DNA of 64,000 nt, taken from the NCBI GenBank assembly GCA_030770425.1, contig JASJFT010000136.1:1-64000 (forward strand). The letters run 5' to 3'. The translations under genes and the position numbers were made by a program. Origin of the DNA: Darksidea phi. Lineage: Eukaryota > Ascomycota > Dothideomycetes > Pleosporales > Lentitheciaceae. Positions 38,178 through 46,564 of this stretch are shown here, one piece after another (positions within the stretch are counted from its first letter, which is position 1; every line of letters starts with the position of its first letter). The notes under the pieces are model-generated. The model searched no databases. It saw nothing but the letters and a program-made list of their open reading frames with translations, and was not told the DNA's origin.

Positions 38178-41100
38178 ATGGAGAAAACCGACATCCACGA
38201 GGGGACCGAGGGGCCCACATTCGAAGCCATCCACGCCTCCAGGCACTACCATCGCCGCGACAGCGAGACCACCATAGGCGAGCAGGGCGTGCAGACACCG
38301 GAGAAGGACAATGCCCACCCTAATGGCGTCGACATCTCTCGCGCCGAAGCCGAGTTCGCTGAGCTCAACCGAGAGCTTTCTCGGGCTAGCCATTTGAGTC
38401 GCGTCCAGTCCCGCCAGAGTCGTAAAGGCGCCGACGTGGAGAAAGCAACTGACGACTCCTCGTCAGAAGAGCAATTCGATCTCGAGACGGTGCTGAGGGG
38501 CAACCGCGATGACGAAGAACGAGCAGGGATCAAGTCGAAGCGGATAGGCGTCCTGTTCGACGGTCTCACTGTGAGCGGAATCGGAGGCGTCAAGAATTAC
38601 GTAAAGACATTCCCGGATGCCTTTGTGTCCTTCTTCAACCTCTTCGCCACTGCCCAGTCTCTGCTAGGATTGGGGAGGAAAGGCCGCGAATTCGACATCC
38701 TCAAGGACTTCAGGGGCATCGTCAACCCGGGAGAGATGTGCTTGGTGTTGGGCAGACCCGGCAGCGGCTGCACCACCTTCCTCAAAGTCATCTCCAACCA
38801 GCGCTATGGATACACCAAGGTTGACGGCAAAGTTCTCTACGGGCCTTTCGACAGTGACTTTTTCGAAAAGCGATATCGAGGCGAGGCTGTGTACTGCGAA
38901 GAGGAAGAGAACCACCACCCCACACTCACCGTCGGCCAAACCCTCGATTTCGCGCTCGAGACAAAAATCCCCGGGAAGCGGCCAGGTGGTCTGTCGAGGA
39001 AAGAACTCAAAGAGCGCGTCATTGATCTTATGCTGAAGATGTTCAACATCGAGCACACGCGCAACACCATTGTTGGGAACCCCTTCGTTCGCGGCATATC
39101 CGGAGGCGAGCGGAAGCGGGTCTCCATTGCAGAGACTATGGTTACGGGCGCATCAGTAATCTCGTGGGACAACTCGACTCGCGGACTAGACGCCTCCACC
39201 GCTGTCGACTACGCCCGTTCTTTGAGAGTGCTGACTAACATCTACAAGACCACCACTTTCGTCTCGCTTTACCAGGCCTCAGAGAACATCTACAAATGTT
39301 TCGACAAAGTCTTGGTTATTGACAGTGGCCGTCAAGTCTACTTTGGTCCCGCGAATGAAGCTCGTACTTACTTCGAAGGTCTCGGCTTTCTTGAGAAGCC
39401 CCGTCAAACGACCCCGGATTATCTCACCGGATGTACGGACCCCTTCGAGCGCGAGTACAAAGCCGGAAGAAATGAAAAGAATGTCCCAAGCACGCCCGAA
39501 GACCTCGCAAATGCCTTCCAGAACTCCGCAATCGCAGCTAAAACGAATGCCGAAATGGCTGAATACGACGCGCGCATGGTTGAAGAGAAGCATGTCTACC
39601 AGGAATTCGAAACCGCAGTGGCCGAAAGCAAGCGACACGCACCCAAGAAGTCGGTCTATTCCATCCCCTTTTATCTGCAGCTATGGGCATTAGCCAAGCG
39701 TCAGTTTTTACTCAAGTGGCAGGACAAGTTCGGCCTCGTAGTGTCCTGGGTCACGTCTCTCACTATTGCCATCATTACCGGTACCGTCTGGCTTGATCTT
39801 CCGAAAACCTCTGACGGCGCCTTCACTAGAGGTGGCGTACTCTTCATCTCTCTCTTGTTCAACGCATTTCAGGCATTCTCCGAATTAGCTTCCACTATGC
39901 TAGGACGGCCGATCGTCAACAAGCATCGCGCATTCACTTTCCATCGGCCGTCGGCACTTTGGATTGCTCAAATTGGCGTCGACTTGCTATTCTCGTCGGT
40001 CCAGATATTAGTCTTCAGCATCATTGTGTACTTCATGACCGGATTGATACGGGATGCAGGAGCGTTTTTCACCTTCTTTCTAATGATTGTCACTGGATAT
40101 TTGGCTATGACGCTCTTCTTCCGAACTGTTGGATGTCTTTGCCCCGACTTCGACGTTGCCATCCGGCTTGCCGCTACCATCATCACCCTGTTCGTGTTGA
40201 CATCGGGCTATCTTATTCAGTGGCAGTCTGAACAAGTCTGGCTCAGATGGATCTTCTACATCAATGCGCTAGGCCTGGCCTTCTCGGCTTTGATGATGAA
40301 CGAGTTCGGACGACTGGACCTGACATGCGCGGGAAACTCGCTTATTCCTTCCGGACCGGGCTATGGTGACATTAATTCTCAGGTTTGTACGCTGCCAGGA
40401 AGTCATGCGGGCTCGACCGCCGTTTCTGGTACAGAGTATATCAAGCTAGCGTTTACGTACGACACGAAGGACTTGTGGAGGAACTGGGGCATAATCATCG
40501 TCCTCATCGTTGGTTTCCTTTGCGCGAATGCTTTCTTGGGAGAGTATGTCAAGTGGGGTGCTGGCGGCCGTACCGTCACCTTCTTCGTCAAGGAGGACAA
40601 GGAACTGAAGGACCTTAACGAGAAGCTTCGCGTGAAGCGCGATAAACGTAACCGCAAGGAAGATGATACCGACGCGAGCTCCGGCCTTAACATCACTTCC
40701 AAAGCCGTTCTGACCTGGGAAGACTTGTGCTACGACGTTCCGGTTCCTTCTGGCCAACTGCGACTGCTCAACAACATTTTTGGATACGTCAAACCGGGTC
40801 AGCTCACTGCGCTCATGGGAGCTTCGGGTGCCGGAAAGACGACGTTACTGGACGTACTTGCCGCGCGTAAGAACATCGGGGTCATTGGAGGCGAAAAGCT
40901 TGTCGATGGAAAGCCGCCTGGTATCGCCTTCCAGCGAGGTACTGCCTACGCCGAGCAACTCGATGTCCACGTAAGTCATGCCTTCTGATGACTGCTTTAA
41001 TGCTCTGTCTGACTGATTCAACTAGGAGCCGGCTACGACTGTCCGCGAGGCGCTTCGCTTCTCCGCCGACCTCCGACAGCCATTTGAGACCCCTCAAGAA

Positions 41101-42767
41101 GAGAAGTATGCATACGTCGAAGAGGTAATCTCTCTTCTCGAGATGGAGGACATGGCCGACGCTATCATCGGTGACCCAGAAACCGGCCTCGCTGTCGAGC
41201 AGCGCAAGCGTGTAACGATTGGCGTCGAGCTAGCCGCGAAACCCGAACTCCTCCTCTTCCTCGACGAACCTACATCCGGACTTGACTCCCAAAGTGCCTT
41301 TAACATTGTGCGTTTCTTGCGAAAACTGGCTGCCGCCGGTCAAGCTATTCTTTGCACGATCCACCAGCCCAATTCGGCGCTATTCGAGAACTTCGATCGC
41401 CTGCTGCTGCTGCAGCGTGGTGGCCAGTGTGTGTACTTTGGTGATATCGGAAAGGATGCTCATGTCCTGCGCTCTTACTTCCAGAAGAACGGTGCGGACT
41501 GCCCGCCCGACGCCAACCCGGCCGAGTGGATGCTGGATGCTATCGGTGCAGGGTCGACTCAACGTATTGGCAAGCGCGATTGGGCAGATATTTGGGTCGA
41601 TTCAGAAGAGTTCGCTCAGACCAAGCAAGAAATCGCTCGCATCAAGGAGACCCGAATCGCCGAAGTTGGTGCAGCAGAGGCTGTCGAGCAAAAGGAGTAC
41701 GCCACGCCATTGATGCATCAGATCAAACTGGTCAACAAGCGCATGAATCTGTCCTTCTGGCGAACACCAAACTATGGCTTTACGCGTCTATTCAACCACG
41801 TCATCATTGCGCTTCTCACCGGTCTAATGTATTTGCAGCTCGACGACTCGCGGTCCTCGTTGCAGTACCGCGTCTTCATCATCTTCCAGGTCACTGTTCT
41901 CCCCGCTCTGATTCTGGCTCAGGTCGAACCAAAGTATGCCATTGCGCGTATGATCTCCTACCGCGAGCAGATGGCCAAGGCTTACAAGACGTTTCCCTTT
42001 GCCTTGTCCATGGTTGTTGCCGAGATGCCTTACAATCTCATCTGTGCCGTCGGTTTCTTCCTCCCACTGTACTACATCCCTGGCCTAAACTCTTCAAGCA
42101 ACCGCGCTGGTTACCAGTTCTTCATGGTTCTTATTACTGAAATCTTCTCCGTCTCCCTGGGTCAGGCTATCGCCGCTTTAACACCCTCCCCTTTCATCTC
42201 ATCACTCGTCAATCCTTTCGTTATTATCATCTTCGCGCTCTTCTGCGGTGTGACTATTCCCAAGCCGCAGATCCCAGGCTTCTGGCGCGCATGGTTGTAT
42301 CAGCTAGATCCGTTCACTAGGCTCATTGGCGGTATGATTGTGACGGAGCTACATGAACTACCGGTGCAGTGTAAGCCGGAGGAATTCAATAGCTTCCGGG
42401 CACCACAGGGTAAGTGAATAAGCGCCTCCTTGATATGTCGAAACCCTGCTAACCTTCTTCTCTCACAGGCCAAGACTGCGGTAGCTACATGAGCGATTTC
42501 TTCTCGAACGGTGCCCCCGGCTACCTACTCAACAACGCTACCGATATGTGCCAGTACTGCGCATTCAAAGTCGGCGATGAGTTCTACGAGCCGCTCGGAT
42601 ACGATTTCAGCCACCGCTGGAGAGATCTGGGCATCTTCGCTGCATTCATCGGATCTAATCTTATCATTTTATTCCTCGCGGTATGTGTTTCGCTGTACGC
42701 TACTTTGTGTGAAGGCAACTAGGCTGACGTGTTTTAGGCTCGCTATCTTAACTTCAACCGTCGGTGA
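38178..42767 (+). CDS. PDR-type ABC multidrug transporter (ABCG full-size)
   Basis: Four exons, 38178-40970, 41026-42409, 42469-42680 and 42738-42767, give 1472 residues, normal for the family. Order is NBD1-TMD1-NBD2-TMD2. NBD1 has the deviant PDR Walker A GRPGSGCTTF (191-200), signature ISGGERKRVS and a Walker B without glutamate (WDNSTRGLD). NBD2 (from ~881) has canonical Walker A GASGAGKTTLL, a deviant signature VEQRKRVTIG and Walker B LLFLDEPTSGLD. This asymmetry, with one working ATP site, is the PDR hallmark. TMD2 carries FWRTPNYGFTRLF and the late extracellular loop with cysteines (QCKPEEFNSF, CGSYM, MCQYC). It should sit in the plasma membrane and export hydrophobic toxicants such as azoles or plant compounds. 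The last exon is 30 nt and ends NFNRR. Confidence 0.95.
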
Positions 42768-45603: not shown

Positions 45604-46564
45604 TTAGACGTACTGGCTGAGCCATCGGATGCCCTCGCCATAGCCTGTTTCGCATTAGCCTTCCATTTTGCCCACCTAGGTCAACACGTCGCCACTCACC
45701 CTGTCGCATAACCACACTGCACATGAACACCTCAATTGGCCGAATGCCCTCAAGTGGTACCTTGCCCTTGCCCGTAGTTTGATAAAGGCCCAGCACCTGC
45801 CTCAGCTGGTCCTCAGAAATCGCATCTGGATGATCGATCTTGTTGCCCAGGACCACAAACGGCGTGCTCGCCAGCTCCTCCATCGCCAGAAGCGCATCGA
45901 GCTCGGCCTTGGACTCGGTAAGACGCTCGTGGTCTTTGGCGTCAACAAGGAAGACGATGCCGCTGACTTCGGGGAAGTAGTCGCGCCAGAGGCGGCGGGC
46001 CTGCGCGTGGCCGCCCAGGTCGAAGGTTGTGAACTTTACATTGCCTATCGAGAGCTCTTCCGAGGCTGTACGAGGTGTTAGAGGGGACGTGGGAGACGTG
46101 GAAAGGAGGAAGTACTTGGGTGGAGAGCTGCGGCGCTGTTAGCATTCTTTGTGCAGAAGGCTATGAGGAGTACCTACTCGGTTGTAGAACGGCCACTCGG
46201 TCACTGTGAGATTAGGCATAGGTTAGCGCCTGCGCAGAACTCTTTGGCGCGGTAGAGAGAGTGCGTACTTCTTTAGCATGTGCAGAAGCGTTGTCTTGCC
46301 CGCATTGTCCAGACCAAGGAACTACGCTCCGTCAGTATTTGCCTCTCCGCAGTCGGCGGCCTGCCTACCAGGAGTTTGGCGTGCTTGTTGGCAAGGCCCA
46401 ACGAAGCCAGAAGATCCCAAACTATGCGCGAGTATCAGCGTTGATCGAAGCGGGGATCTCGTGAGAGTCCGCAGTGGTGGCCGAATGCTTACACCTGGCG
46501 AATGGTTAGCGCCCATCCCCTTGAGTCCACATGCCGGAAATACGTACCAGTTGATAACCCACAT
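45604..46564 (-). CDS. sar1: Sar1, COPII small GTPase
   Basis: Eight exons on the minus strand: 46564-46548, 46494-46493, 46421-46369, 46321-46269, 46203-46178, 46127-46116, 46065-45700 and 45644-45604. Together they encode exactly 189 residues, the family length. The protein reads [20 protein letters not shown], then [10 protein letters not shown] (P-loop), the switch I threonine in [27 protein letters not shown] (switch II), [12 protein letters not shown] (guanine specificity) and [11 protein letters not shown]. Sar1-GTP inserts its N-terminal helix into the ER membrane and recruits Sec23/24 to form COPII vesicles. Exons 2 and 6 are 2 nt and 12 nt long; without them the frame or the conserved switch I region is lost. 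Introns are 47-71 nt, most with CTAAC branch points. Confidence 0.95.
46116..46127 (-). other. sar1: 12-nt microexon of sar1
   Basis: CTCTCCACCCAA, preceded by GCCGCAG (branch GCTAAC) and followed by GTACTT. Joined as A|CT CTC CAC CCA A|CC it encodes T-L-H-P-T, the conserved switch I stretch of Sar1 (QPTLHPTSEEL). Other acceptors in the same introns give non-family residues. Confidence 0.9.
46493..46494 (-). other. sar1: 2-nt microexon of sar1
   Basis: The dinucleotide GT lies between an acceptor (GCTAACCATTCGCCAG) and a donor (GTAAGC). Joined as AAC TG|GT|TT TGG GAT it gives N-W-F-W-D, the Sar1 N-terminal helix. Direct joining of exon 1 to the downstream exon shifts the frame, and no other donor/acceptor choice restores it. 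Confidence 0.85.

Follow-up and report, generated by a model that had tools for sequence, protein, structure and literature searches.

Exons of a single nucleotide have been published for Arabidopsis APC11 (PMC4674806), plant VPS55 (PMC8831610), and Fusarium CYP621A (PMC12940212), and 2–5 bp exons in Arabidopsis, Drosophila, and humans are described by Nelson and Syed (PMC12940212). Because 1-nt exons are already in print, an exon of 2 nt sets no size record. A search of the available literature for 2-nt or 2-bp exons found no report; among the matches listed (40 of 52), the phrase "2 bp exon" occurred once, in a rare-disease database paper. A search combining microexons, fungi, and Sar1 found none. 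For Ascomycota, the available text of the stwintron papers states that intron definition governs the pairing of splice sites and that excision of nested introns is successive (PMC12403724, PMC5639578).

The gene analyzed here is sar1 of Darksidea phi, located on the minus strand of a 64,000-nt stretch of DNA, herein referred to as the window. Its features are as follows.

45604..46564, minus strand: sar1 coding region, 8 exons, 189 aa, from the spliced frame and a PDB match
46548..46564, minus strand: exon 1, 17 nt, MWVIN plus TG, letters ATGTGGGTTATCAACTG
46552-46538, minus strand: genomic letters across the end of exon 1, AACTGGTACGTATTT
46495..46547, minus strand: intron 1, 53 nt, GTACGT...GCTAAC...CCAG
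46505..46510, minus strand: branch-point motif GCTAAC of intron 1, the commonest branch hexamer of the genome set
46493..46494, minus strand: exon 2, the dinucleotide GT, base 3 of the W6 codon and base 1 of the F7 codon
46494-46493, minus strand: context of this dinucleotide, GCTAACCATTCGCCAG|GT|GTAAGC
46422..46492, minus strand: intron 2, 71 nt, GTAAGC...GCTGAT...ATAG
46434..46439, minus strand: branch-point motif GCTGAT of intron 2
46369..46421, minus strand: exon 3, 53 nt, beginning TTTGGGATC
46322..46368, minus strand: intron 3, 47 nt
46269..46321, minus strand: exon 4, 53 nt
46204..46268, minus strand: intron 4, 65 nt
46178..46203, minus strand: exon 5, 26 nt
46128..46177, minus strand: intron 5, 50 nt
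46116..46127, minus strand: exon 6, a second microexon, 12 nt, CTCTCCACCCAA, also found by the spliced aligner
46066..46115, minus strand: intron 6, 50 nt
45700..46065, minus strand: exon 7, 366 nt
45645..45699, minus strand: intron 7, 55 nt
45604..45644, minus strand: exon 8, 41 nt including TAA

All seven introns are of the GT-AG type. With the GT included, the coding sequence has 570 nt and encodes 189 aa ending in WLSQYV. Both GLDNAGKTT and NKID are visible in the spliced protein, its homology to Sar1 is full-length and includes the P-loop, and the best PDB match is yeast Sar1 (1m2o, E 8e-88, residues 3-189), in agreement with the gene name given in the initial annotation. That annotation had also placed a GT exon at 46493..46494, which is right to the base, between an exon 1 ending AACTG at 46548 and a next long exon starting at 46421, with flanking introns of 53 and 71 nt; both coordinates and both lengths were borne out. 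The spliced frame reads MWVINWFWD, and thus the W-F-W-D motif and the 189 residues expected on insertion of GT were recovered. Its frame argument needs widening. Direct joining does lose the frame at residue 6 (MWVINCLGSS...), but only the direct join had been weighed, and three other in-frame GT-AG paths, all of which alter the N-terminus, were omitted. A canonical intron and a branch-point motif are present on either side of exon 2. From the genomic letters, the sar1 pre-mRNA very probably contains a constitutive 2-nt exon.

Some database proteins lack the LHPT that falls in the region of the second microexon: those of Didymella glomerata (P0032), Ascochyta clinopodiicola (P0060), and Neodidymelliopsis (P0059) have VLQPTSEEL there. 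They look as if their gene models skip the 12-nt exon 6.

Splice paths from the ATG to exon 3 were enumerated with up to three introns, each of at least 30 nt. There were 34 GT-AG paths in total, only four of them in frame and open to exon 3: the path through the 2-nt exon, for which the expected junction is ATCAACTG-GT-TTTGGGATC, and three alternatives, namely a 34-nt exon 1 with the donor GTGGAC, a 70-nt exon 1 with the donor GTGTAA, and a 6-nt exon 1 followed by a 25-nt exon. All three alternatives change residues conserved in relatives. When GT and GC donors were both allowed, 21 of 129 paths were in frame, and MWVINWFWD was obtained from the 2-nt exon only. With GT, GC, AT, GA, and AC donors, the in-frame paths numbered 131 of 644; among the paths listed, one with an AC-AG intron gives the identical protein.

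The junction was also analyzed with a purpose-written spliced aligner, which uses intron ends (GT/GC...AG) and BLOSUM62 and contains no splice-site model. The homolog sample comprised 120 listed proteins out of 6,205. With GT/GC donors, 98 of the 120 listed homologs led to the 2-nt exon, among them every one of the 97 that have an intact N-terminus; the rest gave no intron there (16) or other junctions (6). It had also been picked with homologs P0012 and P0004 in an earlier run. With yeast Sar1, the N-terminus of which is divergent, the choice falls on one 109-nt intron, whose donor is very weak. When every donor dinucleotide was permitted and charged a penalty of 8, a single 124-nt AC-AG intron was preferred with all 97 intact homologs, because at this setting one penalized any-donor intron (cost 20) is cheaper than two plain introns (cost 24). 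Protein similarity thus rules out the other GT-AG paths and leaves the AC-AG intron, so the splice signals must decide.

The N-terminus restored by the GT is well represented in the homologs. The start Met lies 17 residues ahead of the N18-equivalent in 97 of the 120 listed proteins, exactly as in the spliced sar1 protein, and the bulky hydrophobics of the N-terminal helix are found at their fixed spacing. Among these 97 spacing-matched homologs, W6 was found in 96 and F7 in 92, under a filter that restricted residue 6 to W, Y, L, or F; without this filter, W occurs in 97 and F in 100 of the 117 anchored proteins of the 120 listed, broken models counted. In a hand-picked group of 189–190 aa proteins from contigs shorter than about 1.7 kb, which are probably transcripts, 23 of 24 are intact; P0084, kept off this list of 24, has a broken N-terminus. 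A tryptophan in the N-terminal helix of human SAR1B is described as entering the membrane (PMC4714187).

Splice signals were compared with those of 72 reference introns, located by protein alignment alone in 27 other loci that encode small GTPases, tubulins, and actins in the same genome. Forty-nine loci were given, on both strands; 6 were dropped (score <250), and 27 gave introns after flank filters. The set excludes sar1, and some of its 72 boundaries may be shifted by alignment slips. The median length of these introns is 53.5 nt, the commonest branch hexamer is GCTAAC (20 of 72), and all 72 donors are GT, with GC permitted. Intron 1 is typical for this genome: its donor, branch, and acceptor lie at percentiles 79, 72, and 46, its branch distance of 11 equals the median, and its length of 53 nt is close to the median. 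Intron 2 is weaker, still within range (donor 14, branch 18, acceptor 25), with signals under the medians and similar to those of several other sar1 introns. The rival donors GTGTAA, GTGGAC, and ACGTAT lie at percentiles 6, 0, and 0, respectively. Once intron 1 is out, GGT|GTAAGC is the in-frame donor and has 5.4 bits, against 2.5 bits for the out-of-frame CTG|GTGTAA.

The chance of such a site was estimated by scanning both strands of the window (2 x 64 kb), with thresholds set at the 5th percentile of the 72 reference introns. A 2-nt exon between a passing acceptor and a passing donor was found only once in the whole window, at the sar1 GT. Other passing exons of 0 to 12 nt were found in 9 places (three of 0 nt, two of 4 nt, one of 7 nt, two of 11 nt, and one of 12 nt), so passing short-exon sites are rare and, as a class, not unique. 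The intron stretch was then shuffled by a first-order Markov model with the flanks and the last 20 nt retained. In one run, any passing 2-nt exon appeared in 2 of 20,000 shuffles and a GT exon in none of the 20,000; in another, a 2-nt exon appeared in 3 of 20,000 and any exon of 2, 5, 8 ... 20 nt, that is, all frame-restoring lengths up to 20 nt, in 12 of 20,000. A search of the window for the plain pattern YAGGTGTRWGY gave a single occurrence (0.35 expected; present in 26 of 100 shuffles); therefore, the pattern alone is weak evidence, and the case is carried by its place and the branch point. Additionally, a 10-nt near repeat (9/10; 46482-46491 and 46499-46508) overlaps the branch region of intron 1 and the donor of intron 2. 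A comparable pair within 20 nt was found in 60 of 3,000 shuffles and in 72 of 1,014 window segments, and the repeat may be due to chance.

Three other readings of the junction have to be weighed against the 2-nt exon. The gene may have no microexon if exon 1 extends in frame to 46495 (70 nt, CAG|GTGTAA, followed by a 73-nt intron) or to 46531 (34 nt, CAT|GTGGAC, followed by a 109-nt intron), adding 17 or 5 residues to Sar1. Both extensions are open GT-AG paths; the 109-nt intron is the one chosen by the aligner with yeast Sar1, and the 73-nt intron was chosen with one of the 120 listed homologs. However, the donors rank at the bottom of the reference set (percentiles 6 and 0 of 72), the gene would carry the full intron 1 signals without using them, and the five homologs of the 120 listed that carry MW...W plus an insertion look like gene models with intron read-through. 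These extensions are very unlikely as the main product, and either may be a minor isoform. A single non-canonical AC-AG intron of 124 nt (46545-46422) after a 19-nt exon 1 would encode a protein identical to that from the 2-nt exon, its length is not unusual (4 of the 72 reference introns have at least 124 nt), and it is the one favored with all 97 intact homologs once any donor is allowed at penalty 8. Yet its donor ACGTAT scores -12.7 bits, lower than every one of the 72 reference donors, all of which are GT, and the complete signals of intron 1 would again go unused. The preference of the aligner leaves the odds as they were, since the penalty was set arbitrarily and the donor still speaks against AC-AG; this intron is scarcely credible.

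An error in the sequence or assembly would make the acceptor-GT-donor motif accidental: two bases would be missing at the exon-1 donor, a true GGTGTACGT having been read as GGTACGT, and a 19-nt exon 1 would be followed by an ordinary intron of about 126 nt. Broken models in relatives do suggest an exon 1 ending in TGGT, and introns of at least 124 nt exist in this genome, as noted above. Against this, the motif would have to arise by chance exactly where it is needed (2 and 3 of 20,000 shuffles for a 2-nt exon, 12 of 20,000 for a frame-restoring exon of up to 20 nt), and intron 1 is typical in both signals and length. Such an error is highly improbable.

For the 2-nt exon, a splicing mechanism can be proposed. 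In the order of excision and the splice-site occupancy that we infer, each sar1 intron would be recognized across itself, by intron definition. Intron definition had been put forward at the outset as what might make a 2-nt exon possible, and this agrees with the stwintron papers on Ascomycota, as far as their available text extends (PMC12403724, PMC5639578). Because the intron 1 acceptor and the intron 2 donor are only two bases apart, the two introns would be removed consecutively, probably the stronger intron 1 first. Its excision would create AACTGGT|GTAAGC, an ordinary exon-1 end with a donor, after which intron 2 would be excised; the opposite order would produce an identical mRNA.

Other splicing schemes were considered for this site and rejected. 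As a recursive-splicing ratchet point, CCAG|GTGTAA would act as a zero-length exon and join AACTG to TTTGGG, with the frame lost and a regenerated donor of 2.5 bits. A stwintron proper does not apply, since the intron 2 donor GTAAGC is intact, two bases downstream of intron 1, and hence not interrupted. In a [D1,2] stwintron, the donor would begin with GG and W6 would be lost, by inspection. U12-type introns were rejected by inspection of the donors GTACGT and GTAAGC against the U12 consensus.

Broken gene models of relatives provide hints on the origin of the exon. Among the 120 listed homologs, 23 have a non-intact N-terminus. By eye, 13 of these show xV(Y/F/W)(D/E), with x able to end in A, and 10 do not. 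The 13 models are as would be expected from read-through of an intron within the F7 codon that ends in AG|TN; they include Dothideomycetes, Sordariomycetes, and Eurotiomycetes. Models of the type MW...W with an insertion number 5 of the 120 listed; four of them have WCK or WCA, which fits a putative donor GC or GT directly after TGGT, and P0077 differs. Broken Sar1 models with MW...WCK were observed in Alternaria conjuncta (P0006), Trematosphaeria pertusa (P0011), and Neopestalotiopsis clavispora (P0069). A GC-AG intron (TGGT|GCAAG) at the junction would fit these models and could account for the failure of predictors there.

This back-translation of protein models, as distinct from DNA, points to an ancestral exon 1 with TGGT as its end and to an ancient intron 2, which lies in phase 1 within the F7 codon and would be old in Pezizomycotina. 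Intron 1 would have come later, inserted two bases upstream of the intron 2 donor, so that the final two bases of exon 1 became a separate exon. An alternative route, loss of exon-end bases followed by rescue through a cryptic exon, is proposed for Fusarium in the available part of PMC12940212; either route may have produced sar1 exon 2. As a tentative proposal that we hold at somewhat less than even chances, the 2-nt exon may be the severed end of an ancestral 19-nt exon 1, cut off when a new intron landed two bases upstream of an ancient donor. Such an exon would stand midway between stwintron and microexon, sequential splicing having freed the spacing of introns down to one or two bases, and such sites may be common in fungi with intron definition, concealed by broken gene models.

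A tandem duplication was rejected as the source of intron 1: the alignment of introns 1 and 2 scores 20, a value equalled by 304 of 5,000 shuffles and by 393 of 2,926 other intron pairs. No introner-like copies of intron 1 or intron 2 were found, each query matching only its own site (E up to 10, very common words skipped). Fungal sar1 DNA for comparison was sought in viral contigs, and none of the 69 pattern-matching stretches was from a relative. In the genome contigs scanned for sar1, 26 loci were found, only one of them close to Sar1 (L009, 56%). This Sar1-like gene (JABSRF010000156.1, 56% identity, residues 14-187), which was left out of the comparison, is on a contig catalogued under an Oligoflexales bacterium MAG and is probably eukaryotic contamination. 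A very near relative, P0264 (99% identity, 88% coverage of residues 52-189), comes from a contig of 2,161 bases, and its predicted frame, by reading, contains only exons 6-7 and adjoining intron sequence.

The ABC transporter of the window shows its best identity among the matches listed, 93%, to Lentithecium fluviatile (Lentitheciaceae, Pleosporales). This match puts the fungus nearest to Lentithecium and supports the order Pleosporales, to which the initial annotation had referred. At 38178-42417 on the plus strand, two adjacent frames of 936 and 424 aa were observed, the Lentithecium fluviatile protein P0121 having 1,472 aa; the two frames look like one CDR/SNQ2-type ABC transporter.

Sar1, a small GTPase of COPII on which protein secretion depends, is essential in yeast. 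If the exon is confirmed, a housekeeping gene depends on splicing in exactly two nucleotides, flanked by an acceptor and a donor for which simultaneous occupancy is hardly feasible. The site would then be a clean natural substrate for the question of whether intron definition and sequential splicing abolish the lower limit of exon size. It connects microexons and stwintrons, so far described separately. It also points to a practical fault, in that breaks lie at the exon 1-3 junction or close to it in several listed sar1 gene models of Pleosporales and of other Pezizomycotina.

Compared with the described systems, the closest in kind is Fusarium CYP621A, which, as presented in the available part of PMC12940212, is likewise a fungal nuclear gene with an internal exon far under codon size. 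Its exon is needed for the frame in a conserved motif, was overlooked by gene models, and has short flanking introns, all as in sar1. It differs in having one base and lying in a P450 gene, and it is documented by 18 SRA reads and 20 orthologs, whereas the sar1 exon is predicted from genomic sequence. Plant APC11 (PMC4674806) and VPS55 (PMC8831610) share with sar1 an ultra-short exon, for which the available text gives successive removal of two introns as the proposal of Guo and Liu; unlike sar1, these exons are from plants and of 1 nt, and both were proved by RT-PCR, with reporter constructs in addition for APC11. The Trichoderma Xlr2 switch is also a microexon of a filamentous ascomycete, with glucose-dependent inclusion according to the portion available (PMC11121469), whereas sar1 gives no sign of regulation. 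The stwintrons of Pezizomycotina, as described in the accessible parts of PMC5639578 and PMC12403724, resemble the scheme proposed for sar1 in having two short, almost nested U2 introns excised consecutively by intron definition, a new internal intron within an older intron position, and a frameshift on direct outer splicing. In a stwintron, however, it is the external intron whose donor, branch point, or acceptor is interrupted by the internal one, while in sar1 the intron 2 donor GTAAGC is whole and two exon bases lie between the introns. We therefore file the sar1 GT as a further ultra-short exon, stwintron-like in its working and not a stwintron by definition.
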